Positions 46,435 through 49,432 of a stretch of 64,000 nt of DNA are shown piece after piece. Position 1 is the stretch's first letter. Each line of letters starts with the position of its first letter. The translations under genes and the position numbers were made by a program. The notes under the pieces are model-generated. The model was not told where the DNA came from, did no database searches, and saw only the letters and a program-made list of their open reading frames with translations. The stretch is from Aquimarina sp. BL5 (GTDB lineage: Bacteria; Bacteroidota; Bacteroidia; Flavobacteriales; Flavobacteriaceae), in the NCBI RefSeq assembly GCF_003443675.1, contig NZ_CP031963.1, forward strand, positions 2,441,501 through 2,505,500, written 5' to 3'.

Positions 46435-46495
46435 ACAACTTTGATTTATAAATTAGTATACATTTCTGTTACTCGGATTTGGGATAATTATGCAA

Positions 46496-46503
46496 CAAAT
46501 ATA
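46496..46503 (-). promoter_or_regulatory. -7 box of the XRE-S24 repressor gene
   Basis: TATATTTG on the minus strand, exact TAnnTTTG. A TTGG that overlaps operator 1 lies 18 bp upstream as a possible -33 box. Confidence 0.6.
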
Positions 46504-46510
46504 CTATTTT

Positions 46511-46525
46511 TTGGAATATTTCCAA
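46511..46525. promoter_or_regulatory. Operator 1 (TTGGAATATTTCCAA)
   Basis: Inverted repeat with 6-bp arms TTGGAA/TTCCAA around a 3-nt centre. It spans the -33 region of the leftward repressor promoter. A second copy starts exactly 42 bp away. Confidence 0.75.
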
Positions 46526-46552
46526 TTTTAACACCATTTCATTTTTATTTTG

Positions 46553-46566
46553 TTGGAATATTTCCA
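46553..46566. promoter_or_regulatory. Operator 2 (TTGGAATATTTCCA)
   Basis: Identical to operator 1 over 14 bases, and directly upstream of the rightward -7 box. A further half-site TTGGAA at 46572-46577 overlaps that -7 box. Confidence 0.75.
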
Positions 46567-46574
46567 TAAATTTG
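46567..46574 (+). promoter_or_regulatory. -7 box of the DUF559/radical-SAM operon
   Basis: TAAATTTG, an exact TAnnTTTG match 28 bp before the ATG at 46602. Operator 2 abuts its left edge, which fits repression by steric block. Confidence 0.6.
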
Positions 46575-46601
46575 GAAAAATTACTAGTTAACCAAATACA
46601 T

Positions 46602-46982
46602 ATGGCATCACAAATTGTTTTACACCGACCAGAATCAGAAAAAACTATTCGATATTCGTTAAATAATTCAATTCCTGCGACAGAGGAACTTTACAAACGG
46701 TTAATCGAAAAAGGTTTTCTCTTTAAAAGAAACCATAAGATTCATAACTACACTTTTGATTTTTACTCTCCTTCACTAAAAATTGCCATAGAGATTGATG
46801 GATACGCGCACGAATTCTCTGAAGTTTATAGTCAAGATACTCCGAAAAAACTACACATCCATTCCTTAGGCATAACAGTATTACGTTTTACTGATTATCA
46901 AATTCTAGTAGATATAGAAGAAATTTTTAGAGCTTTAAAACATCAAATTAAGCTATCCAATAGAAGCAGATATGTCGTTTGA
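46602..46982 (+). CDS. DUF559/VSR-like endonuclease domain protein
   Basis: I start at the ATG at 46602 (126 aa); the upstream TTG at 46572 overlaps the promoter. The fold is PD-(D/E)xK: RLIEKGFLFKRNHKIHNY, FDFYSPSLKIAIEIDGYAH (Asp then Glu-x-Asp), and ITVLRFTDYQILVDIEEIF. DUF559 is related to the very-short-patch repair nuclease. It overlaps the next gene by 11 bp, so translation is coupled to the radical-SAM protein. Role in nicking damaged or mismatched DNA is inference. Confidence 0.82.
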   Translation: MASQIVLHRPESEKTIRYSLNNSIPATEELYKRLIEKGFLFKRNHKIHNYTFDFYSPSLKIAIEIDGYAHEFSEVYSQDTPKKLHIHSLGITVLRFTDYQILVDIEEIFRALKHQIKLSNRSRYVV

Positions 46983-48231
46983 GAGAACTCGTGAAAAGCT
47001 CTCGATTCTTGCGGATGCCGCCAAGTATGATGTATCCTGTGCAAGTAGTGGAGGAAAAAGAGAAAATACTAGTAAAGGTATAGGTAATAACACGGGCATG
47101 GGTATATGCCATAGTTATACCGAAGATGGTCGTTGTGTATCGTTATTAAAAATTTTGCTCACCAATCATTGTATTTTTGACTGCGCGTATTGTGTTACCC
47201 GTAAAAGTAATGATATAAAAAGAGCAGCCTTTAAAATACAGGAAGTTGTAGACCTAACCATTAATTTTTATCGTAGAAATTACATAGAAGGATTATTTCT
47301 TAGTTCAGGAATTTTTAAAAACTCTGATTATACTATGGAACGATTGGTTGCAGTTGCCAAAAAACTTCGGTTAGAAGAGAATTTTAACGGATATATTCAT
47401 TTAAAGTCAATTCCAGGAACCAGTGATGAACTGATGAGAGAAGCTGGACTCTACGCTGATCGTCTAAGTGTTAATATAGAAATACCCACTATATCGGGAC
47501 TTAAACTTTTAGCACCCGATAAAAAACACGAGGATTTTATGAAACCTATGCAAAAGGTAAAAAATGAAATCCTTCAATACAAAGCAGAACGAAAAATTAT
47601 AAAAAGTACACCTAGATATGCTCCAGCAGGACAAAGCACTCAAATGATTATTGGCGCTACGGGAGAAAGCGATAAAGACATTATGTATTCTGCTACTTAT
47701 TATTACAAAAAGTTTAATATGCGAAGGGTATATTATTCTGGTTATGTTCCGGTTACGACAGATCATCGTTTACCTTCTTTACAGACCGAAGTACCCATTC
47801 TCAGGGAAAATCGATTGTATCAAACAGATTGGTTATTAAGATTTTATGGATTTTCGATTAGCGAATTATTAAATGACCAATATAAAAACTTAGCACTTGA
47901 TATTGATCCTAAATTAAGTTGGGCATTACGTAATTTGGATTTTTTCCCAGTTGACATTAACAAGGCAGACAAAAACATTTTGGCTAGAATACCTGGAATT
48001 GGGATGCAATCGGTTTCAAAAATACTTCAGGCAAGAAAATTTAGAAAATTAGATTGGACACATCTTAAAGCAATTGGTATCGCATTAAATAGAGCACAAT
48101 ACTTCATTACCTGCAACTCCAAAGACTTCTACCACAAAGATCTTACTCCACTAACGCTTAAGAATATCATTCTAAAAAATTCTAAAAGTAAATACACTAA
48201 GTATTTTACGAATCAATTGAGTCTTTTCTAG
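46972..48231 (+). CDS. Putative DNA modification/repair radical-SAM protein
   Basis: 419 residues. The 4Fe-4S motif C67-x3-C71-x2-C74 is in NHCIFDCAYCVTRKS. The protein begins MSFERTREKLSILADAAKYD, known from the TIGR03916 'radical SAM linked to UDG' family. A helix-hairpin-helix DNA-binding region lies at about 335-380 (ILARIPGIGMQSVSKILQARKF). It is related at distance to spore photoproduct lyase. The next gene encodes its usual partner. The chemistry and substrate are not established in the literature I know. Confidence 0.9.
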   Translation: MSFERTREKLSILADAAKYDVSCASSGGKRENTSKGIGNNTGMGICHSYTEDGRCVSLLKILLTNHCIFDCAYCVTRKSNDIKRAAFKIQEVVDLTINFYRRNYIEGLFLSSGIFKNSDYTMERLVAVAKKLRLEENFNGYIHLKSIPGTSDELMREAGLYADRLSVNIEIPTISGLKLLAPDKKHEDFMKPMQKVKNEILQYKAERKIIKSTPRYAPAGQSTQMIIGATGESDKDIMYSATYYYKKFNMRRVYYSGYVPVTTDHRLPSLQTEVPILRENRLYQTDWLLRFYGFSISELLNDQYKNLALDIDPKLSWALRNLDFFPVDINKADKNILARIPGIGMQSVSKILQARKFRKLDWTHLKAIGIALNRAQYFITCNSKDFYHKDLTPLTLKNIILKNSKSKYTKYFTNQLSLF

Positions 48232-48242
48232 TACATCCAGAT

Positions 48243-49016
48243 ATGAATCCACAAACCATTTTATTATATGACGGAAGTTTTGATGGATTTTTAACCTGCA
48301 TATTTACTGTATATGAGCAAAAAATAGATGCTCCTATTATTAGAAAAGAATCTGAACCAAATAATCAGCTATTTACAATTTCTGAAACAATTATTACTGA
48401 TGAAACAAAATCTAACCGAGTATGGAAAGGTATAAAAACTAAAATACCATCCTCTCAACAGAAAATTCTTTTTAAAGCTTTTCTAAGTGAGATTAAAGGA
48501 GTGGAAAACACGCTTCTATGTTATATTCAGAATATTTTCGACACACCCAATTCTACTATTATTGATTACAGCAATAAAGATATTCTTAAAATAAGTCAAG
48601 TAGCTAAAATGGTTGGAAGGGAAAAACATAGAATGGAGGCTTTTGTTCGATTCCAACGAACAAAAGATGATATTTTTGTTTCCACTGTTGAACCTGACTT
48701 TAATGTTTTGCCATTGTTGATACATCATTTCAAAGATCGATATGCTGACCAAAAATGGTTAATCTATGATATTAAGAGATCATACGGACTATATTATAAT
48801 CTTGATAAAGTAGATATTATAACCTTAGACTTTTTTTCAAAACTAAATACAAATATTCAAAAGGAAAATTATGCTGATAACGAGTTAGATTTTCAGAAGC
48901 TATGGCAAACTTATTTTAACAGTGTTAATATCAAATCCAGAAAAAACTCAAAACTACATATGCAGCATCTTCCCAAGCGTTATTGGAAATACTTGACAGA
49001 AAAAAACGAAATGTAA
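48243..49016 (+). CDS. DUF4130/TIGR03915 DNA metabolism protein, radical-SAM partner
   Basis: 257 residues, 11 bp after the radical-SAM gene. LLYDGSFDGFLTCIFTVYE and the C-terminal MQHLPKRYWKYLTEK are signatures of the family that is always found with, and sometimes fused to a uracil-DNA-glycosylase domain beside, the radical-SAM protein. No UDG domain is present here: the sequence stops after the DUF4130 part. RFQRTKDDIFVSTVEPDFNVLPLL forms the conserved core. Third gene of the probable damage-response operon. Confidence 0.87.
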   Translation: MNPQTILLYDGSFDGFLTCIFTVYEQKIDAPIIRKESEPNNQLFTISETIITDETKSNRVWKGIKTKIPSSQQKILFKAFLSEIKGVENTLLCYIQNIFDTPNSTIIDYSNKDILKISQVAKMVGREKHRMEAFVRFQRTKDDIFVSTVEPDFNVLPLLIHHFKDRYADQKWLIYDIKRSYGLYYNLDKVDIITLDFFSKLNTNIQKENYADNELDFQKLWQTYFNSVNIKSRKNSKLHMQHLPKRYWKYLTEKNEM

Positions 49017-49069: not shown

Positions 49070-49432
49070 ATGAAAAGATTATTTTTAGGAGCAATTGCTC
49101 TAACGTTAGCAGTTTCAGTAACTTCTTGTAGAGATACAAAAAAAGCTGAAGATGTTGCTAATGATGCTGTGGAAGAAGTAAAAGAAGCAGCAGAAGAAGT
49201 AAAAGAAGAAGCGAAAGATGCTTTAGAAGACGCGAAAGATGCTGCAGGTGAAGCAGTTGAAGATGCAAAAGATGCTGTAGAAAACGTAAAAGACGCTGCA
49301 GGCGACGCTGTAGAAGATGCAAAAGACGCAGTAAAAGAAGGAGCTGATGCTGCAAAAGATGCAGTGAAAGAAGGAACTGATGCTGTAAAAGAAGGAGCTA
49401 ACAAAGCTACTGATGCATTAAAAAAGCAATAA
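49070..49432 (+). CDS. Small lipoprotein made of Ala/Lys/Glu/Asp amphipathic repeats
   Basis: 120 residues. Signal MKRLFLGAIALTLAVSVTSC with lipobox Cys20. The mature part consists almost only of A, K, E, D, V and G in 11-residue periods such as DAVEDAKDAVK, EGADAAKDAVK and EGTDAVKEGAN, with no aromatic residue. This pattern is like LEA-type or apolipoprotein-like amphipathic helices and predicts one long surface helix anchored by lipid. A role in desiccation or envelope stress protection is inference; composition alone cannot prove it. Confidence 0.8.
   Translation: MKRLFLGAIALTLAVSVTSCRDTKKAEDVANDAVEEVKEAAEEVKEEAKDALEDAKDAAGEAVEDAKDAVENVKDAAGDAVEDAKDAVKEGADAAKDAVKEGTDAVKEGANKATDALKKQ

Follow-up and report, generated by a model that had tools for sequence, protein, structure and literature searches.

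The locus described here is very probably the SOS master locus of Aquimarina sp. BL5, at which an S24 protein acts as a non-canonical LexA of the GGA-N5-TCC type, represses its own gene and a divergent repair operon, and is released by DNA damage. The features lie in a window, i.e. the whole stretch of 64,000 nucleotides analysed, and are collected in Table 1; this analysis established the sequence, the extent to which it is conserved, and which promoters bear operators. The system itself is already published and explains most of the locus. According to the main text of that report, the non-canonical LexA of Bacteroidetes recognizes GGA-N5-TCC operators in Flavobacteriaceae, and the same motif was shown in Salegentibacter agarivorans to be bound (EMSA) and to confer induction by mitomycin C (RT-qPCR) (Sanchez-Osuna et al. 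2021, PMC8565304). By analogy with this relative, the release by DNA damage proposed in a first-pass annotation of the window is supported.

Table 1. Positions of the regulator, operators, promoter boxes and repair genes in the window.
Feature	Position	Strand	Remarks	Basis
Regulator, predicted non-canonical LexA (HTH_3 + peptidase S24), 255 aa	45667..46434	-	Ala105-Gly106, Ser144, Lys183	Pfam and alignment
-7 box TATATTTG	46496..46503	-	regulator promoter	sequence
O1 operator TTGGAATATTTCCAA	46511..46525	.	over -33 region of regulator promoter	sequence
O2 operator TTGGAATATTTCCAT	46553..46567	.	abuts rightward -7 box; 42 bp from O1	sequence
-7 box TAAATTTG	46567..46574	+	repair operon promoter, between O2 and O3	sequence
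O3 degenerate operator TGGAAAAATTACT (GGA-N5-TAC)	46573..46585	.	19 bp from O2	one-base-off operator, conserved
DUF559 (Vsr/PD-(D/E)XK-like) protein	46602..46982	+	first operon gene	PF04480, E=5.2e-14
rSAM_link_UDG, putative DNA modification/repair radical SAM protein	46972..48231	+		TIGR03916, 663.9 bits vs cut-off 343.5
TIGR03915 putative DNA repair protein (DUF4130)	48243..49016	+		TIGR03915, 279.1 bits vs 112.25; PF13566

In the mechanism proposed, a regulator dimer on O1 would cover the -33 region and shut the regulator's own promoter, while a dimer on O2 (perhaps together with O3), flanking the -7 box, would shut the promoter of the repair operon. Upon DNA damage, RecA filaments would trigger self-cleavage of the regulator at Ala105-Gly106, and both promoters would then fire, together with those of dinB, a PA0069-family radical SAM gene, a DnaQ/GIY-YIG exonuclease gene and two small orphans. 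Cleavage, occlusion and cooperativity are what we infer for this organism.

The regulator and its divergent repair operon

The regulator had been read as an XRE-S24 repressor, and this is supported by its domains, an N-terminal HTH_3 (PF01381) and a C-terminal S24 (PF00717), both over the Pfam cut-off, and by the presence of the autocleavage residues: Ala105, Gly106, Ser144 and Lys183 are invariant in all 81 aligned proteins, the window protein among them. These domains, the Ala-Gly and Ser-Lys residues, the operator and the family Flavobacteriaceae are all shared with the non-canonical LexA as presented in the main text of PMC8565304. The protein compared that comes nearest to the one validated in S. 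agarivorans, that of the relative Salegentibacter tibetensis, is 63% identical. By analogy, function, autocleavage chemistry and target genes would also be those of canonical LexA, whereas the operator is different and the LexA model TIGR00498 finds no match in this genome. Likewise, a LexA-type HTH is absent from the Pfam matches, and across the genus sample some TIGR00498 match occurs in 16 of 52 genomes, 15 of them sub-cut-off and the single one over the cut-off (genome G006) with a stop inside.

A match to the regulator was obtained in 62 of 66 genus genomes, one of these (G046, 55% complete) being matched by an S24-XRE paralogue alone, and in 58/58 of the good genomes. The regulator loci named for comparison were the best 80 of 477, i.e. 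46 from the same genus and 34 from others such as Salinimicrobium, Gillisia, Salegentibacter, Maribacter and Allomuricauda, and within 400 bp, two or more operators are present in every one of these 80 regulator promoters. In one relative (locus L174, G038:C1:149283-151747) the leader from operator to regulator is about 120 bp longer, with a GC-rich, repeat-like insert.

The palindrome had been annotated as occurring twice, with starts 42 bp apart, next to two -7 boxes, and every coordinate was confirmed, as was the presence of an operator at each of the divergent promoters (O1 and O2). The rightward -7 box is abutted on one side by O2 and overlapped at its other end by O3; in the named loci the TAnnTTTG box usually starts about 20-22 bp past the start of the nearest operator, with exceptions (e.g. 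locus L148). O1 and O2 are the only exact copies of TGGAANNNTTCCA in the 64 kb, against a mean expectation of 0.12 sites in 400 first-order Markov simulations, none of which (0/400) produced a pair of exact sites less than 60 bp apart. When two mismatches are tolerated, the number of copies in the window is that expected by chance (36 observed vs 36.45 expected), so that the signal is the exact pair.

The divergent genes were also correctly annotated as a DNA-repair locus, the operon consisting of DUF559, rSAM_link_UDG and TIGR03915, and they are most likely controlled by the adjoining regulator. The DUF559 gene heads the operon in all 46 genus loci (tblastn match) and in none of the 34 others. 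A DUF559 protein of Caulobacter, VsrA, is reported as probably SOS-induced in the part of PMC12907096 covered; compared to that case, which likewise places a DUF559 nuclease-like gene within an SOS regulon, the Aquimarina gene differs in heading an operon divergent from the repressor gene. Directly 3' of the repair operon (window 49070-49432) lies a gene for a small putative lipoprotein of EAKDA-like repeats.

Operator spacing and the imperfect third site

Of the 46 genus loci, 43 have O1 and O2 at a distance of 42 bp and the other three at 40-41 bp, and all 66 of the loci fetched that have a divergent repair gene at most 450 bp away hold a pair at 39-43 bp. Among 14 loci that have no such gene, 12 lack both this pair and O3, the exceptions being L151 and L149, a locus that ends before the neighbour. 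The outer operator thus follows the second promoter, and the most fitting reading of the 42-bp gap is that it separates the operators of two back-to-back promoters. The first-pass annotation had instead inferred cooperative, possibly looped, repression of both promoters; in this reading O1 and O2 are a looping or bridging pair, and their four-turn spacing by itself makes the repression cooperative. The constancy within the genus would fit this, as would the 39-42 bp kept in seven deep-branch loci despite different operator sequences; however, a stretch of 42 bp is much shorter than the bending length of DNA, the distance is 59 bp in two deep-branch loci, and of the 14 loci without a divergent repair gene 12 lack the pair. 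Further, some relatives hold an operator inside the gap, which makes looping unnecessary: Gillisia loci with a divergent dinB are arranged as O2 -19- Omid -23- O1; in the Maribacter/Allomuricauda group the gap is divided into 18 + 22/23 bp. Looping is therefore considered unlikely, and the spacing is taken to fit two adjacent promoters. Given these mid-gap operators, the empty gap in Aquimarina probably represents an array minus a lost middle operator.

Operator spacings fall into classes of 18-23, 31 and 42 bp, although 29, 30, 39, 40 and 59 bp also occur. A same-face helical rule was considered, with a resultant length at a 10.5-bp period of 0.62 (14 distinct values) or 0.58 (33 intervals), and is not claimed, because of these off-class spacings and because the intervals are not independent.

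A third half-site had also been annotated. A site is indeed present, but calling it a half-site understated it, as it is a near-complete and conserved operator with one of six core bases off. Exactly 19 bp from O2, every one of the 46 loci from the genus has a 13-mer that reads xGTAnnnnnTCCA, i.e. one core base is off in one half. Of the 66 loci that have the divergent repair gene, 63 carry O3; in place of it, a fourth operator lies at 23 bp in L161, L165 and L166. These loci are related by descent and the counts are hence not independent. The mirror image, TGGAnnnnnTACA, stands at this place in seven genomes from deep branches of the genus, with regulators that share 52-54% identity with the window regulator, and a mirrored O3 also recurs in the Gillisia loci with divergent dinB. 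Fifteen of 17 extra promoters, several of which are loci already among the 46, have the pair, and O3 is present in 15/15; in the other two, L177 and L180, the operators are 59 bp apart and there is no pair, hence O3 was left unscored.

Changes in either dyad abolished binding in EMSA with S. agarivorans, according to the main text of PMC8565304. From this, O3 may not be bound at all; alternatively, its being kept while imperfect suggests that it depends on the neighbouring operator. Several operators thus stand at short fixed spacing, a conserved sub-consensus O3 among them, which is the arrangement of a CI-type array, and a conserved and mirrored O3 may be regarded as circumstantial evidence, at the level of sequence, for CI-like cooperative arrays. 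A more far-reaching proposal, which we put forward as tentative and somewhat doubtful, is that this LexA substitute still uses its operators in the manner of a phage CI repressor, with fixed arrays and a weak O3 filled only through cooperation with O2, that the repair operon opens before dinB, and that the Aquimarina regulon recruited the DUF559 nuclease and a 112-aa orphan. The order of opening would follow in this genome from the 19-bp operator pair of dinB being perfect and O3 weak. In Gillisia, however, the weak O3 stands before dinB and not before the repair operon; the order of induction may thus differ by genus, which argues against a general rule of the repair operon first.

Candidate members of the regulon in the genome and the family

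The exact 13-mer occurs 20 times in the genome, compared to nine copies of the reversed-pattern control. Eight of the 20 copies form four close pairs, and the 12 single ones look like background given the number obtained with the control; eight of these were examined, seven being inside predicted ORFs and one intergenic. It had been suggested to check whether the motif is confined to the neighbourhoods of S24 regulators, and it is not, as paired copies also precede SOS-type or orphan genes elsewhere; one pair belongs to a duplicated promoter that no ORF of at least 70 aa directly follows. Upstream of dinB (DNA polymerase IV) the TAAATTTG box lies between the two operators, the PA0069-family radical SAM gene is preceded by an operator pair at 21 bp, and the DnaQ/GIY-YIG exonuclease gene also has an operator pair upstream. 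The promoter of the PA0069 gene is duplicated with both operators about 32 kb away (L005 4924-4957, G000:C1:3065923-3065956); no ORF of at least 70 aa follows directly, and a transposase-like ORF is located about 1 kb further. The genes dinB and PA0069, the repair operon and the GIY-YIG exonuclease gene are hence all under the GGA-N5-TCC motif in this genome. Here we take COG4277 to be TIGR03916 and SplB (COG1533) to be PA0069. The targets common to both organisms, as far as the main text of PMC8565304 goes, are dinB, an SplB-type radical SAM gene, a COG4277-type repair operon and the GIY-YIG exonuclease gene named there, and at least two sites are likewise found in several promoters. A further likeness concerns recA. 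In the Aquimarina genome no exact GGA-N5-TCC was found over 1.5 kb of sequence upstream of this canonical SOS gene, which counts against the SOS reading, although recA was not induced in S. agarivorans either (main text of PMC8565304).

A relaxed search for operator pairs returned six distinct places in the own genome (five forward and five reverse matches) and none with the control; it passes over the promoter of the 112-aa orphan, where the first site starts with A one way and the second the other way. The strict pair occurs in 39 of 52 genus genomes and 0/39 others (control: three forward matches in two genomes), and the relaxed pair in 89 of 249 family genomes compared to 2/249 for the control, 160 of the 249 being without it. 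When pair loci were fetched, one of nine query proteins stood beside the pair in 30/30 genus loci, of which 22 are independent since eight belong to the two orphans chosen for such sites, and in 24 of 29 family loci, where three assignments (L230, L244 and L247) rest on 25-28% identity.

Two alternatives were considered. The regulator could be a purely local autoregulator of phage or toxin-antitoxin-like type that controls only its neighbour, since XRE-S24 repressors are common in prophages and its HTH weakly resembles PezA; the matching pairs before dinB, the PA0069 gene, the exonuclease gene and the orphans of the same genome, together with conservation of the regulator across the genus, make this hardly credible. 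The palindromes could also be bound by another regulator, such as the second S24-XRE paralogue at C1:4367746, which is 34% identical over residues 37-225. This is very unlikely, as GGA-N5-TCC is found in none of 15 paralogue promoters, eight of which carry CAGA-N5-TCTG, and the paralogue promoter L187 is without operator. In the paralogue locus of this genome (L013, G000:C1:4366246-4369830) the promoter holds the palindrome TACAGAAATATTCTGTA, while CTAA-N5-TTAG was seen in 0/15 paralogue promoters of the genus; our guess is that the paralogue is a member of the other regulator group with a diverged operator.

Both small orphans have an operator pair at 31 bp in this genome. For the 112-aa orphan, 43 of the 66 genomes of the genus gave a match; in the family sample of 249 genomes, only the two members of the genus did. 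Its 52 relatives among 5.8 billion proteins are, where an organism is named, Aquimarina hypothetical proteins, and none of the 52 has a precomputed Pfam domain. The promoters fetched numbered 31, one per genome from 31 of the 43 genomes with extra copies left out, and 29 of them (L217 included) show the 31-bp pair, one has 32 bp, and L213 has none. An orphan family with SOS operators in nearly every promoter examined is what would be expected of a lineage-specific SOS effector, and one such as a division inhibitor is our guess. The case of the 108-aa orphan (L223 1549-1875, G000:C1:2568597-2568920) is weaker. Its second operator lies directly 5' of the start codon. The gene occurs in only 10 of the 66 genomes of the genus, where several copies are short or contain a stop, and a pair at 29-31 bp is present at 8 of 14 loci.

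Relation to known repressors and implications

Phage lambda CI acts on several operators per control region, with a weaker one beside a strong one, at divergent promoters that include that of the repressor itself. The Aquimarina locus shares with CI this array with a weaker site and the divergent promoters, one being for the repressor, as well as the S24 domain and a CI-like HTH, the latter as stated in the main text of PMC8565304. In contrast to CI on OR/OL, nothing in the Aquimarina data points to an activating role for the repressor or to long-range looping, and cooperativity is putative.

The operator layout with O3, the DUF559 gene in the operon and the genus-restricted 112-aa gene with its 31-bp pair look new. 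Aquimarina, DUF559/COG2852 and cooperativity do not occur in the main text of PMC8565304, and spacing classes, O3 and small orphans were not met in the main-text parts covered. Titles and the starts of abstracts on flavobacterial or Bacteroidetes LexA, on DUF559 in SOS and on Aquimarina LexA likewise held none of the spacings, O3 or the orphan genes.

Aquimarina is hereby placed within the recently found SOS system of Bacteroidetes. The quality of the operators leads to a testable prediction of the order of induction, and O3 variants that are degenerate in either half may offer a natural test of CI-like cooperative binding.
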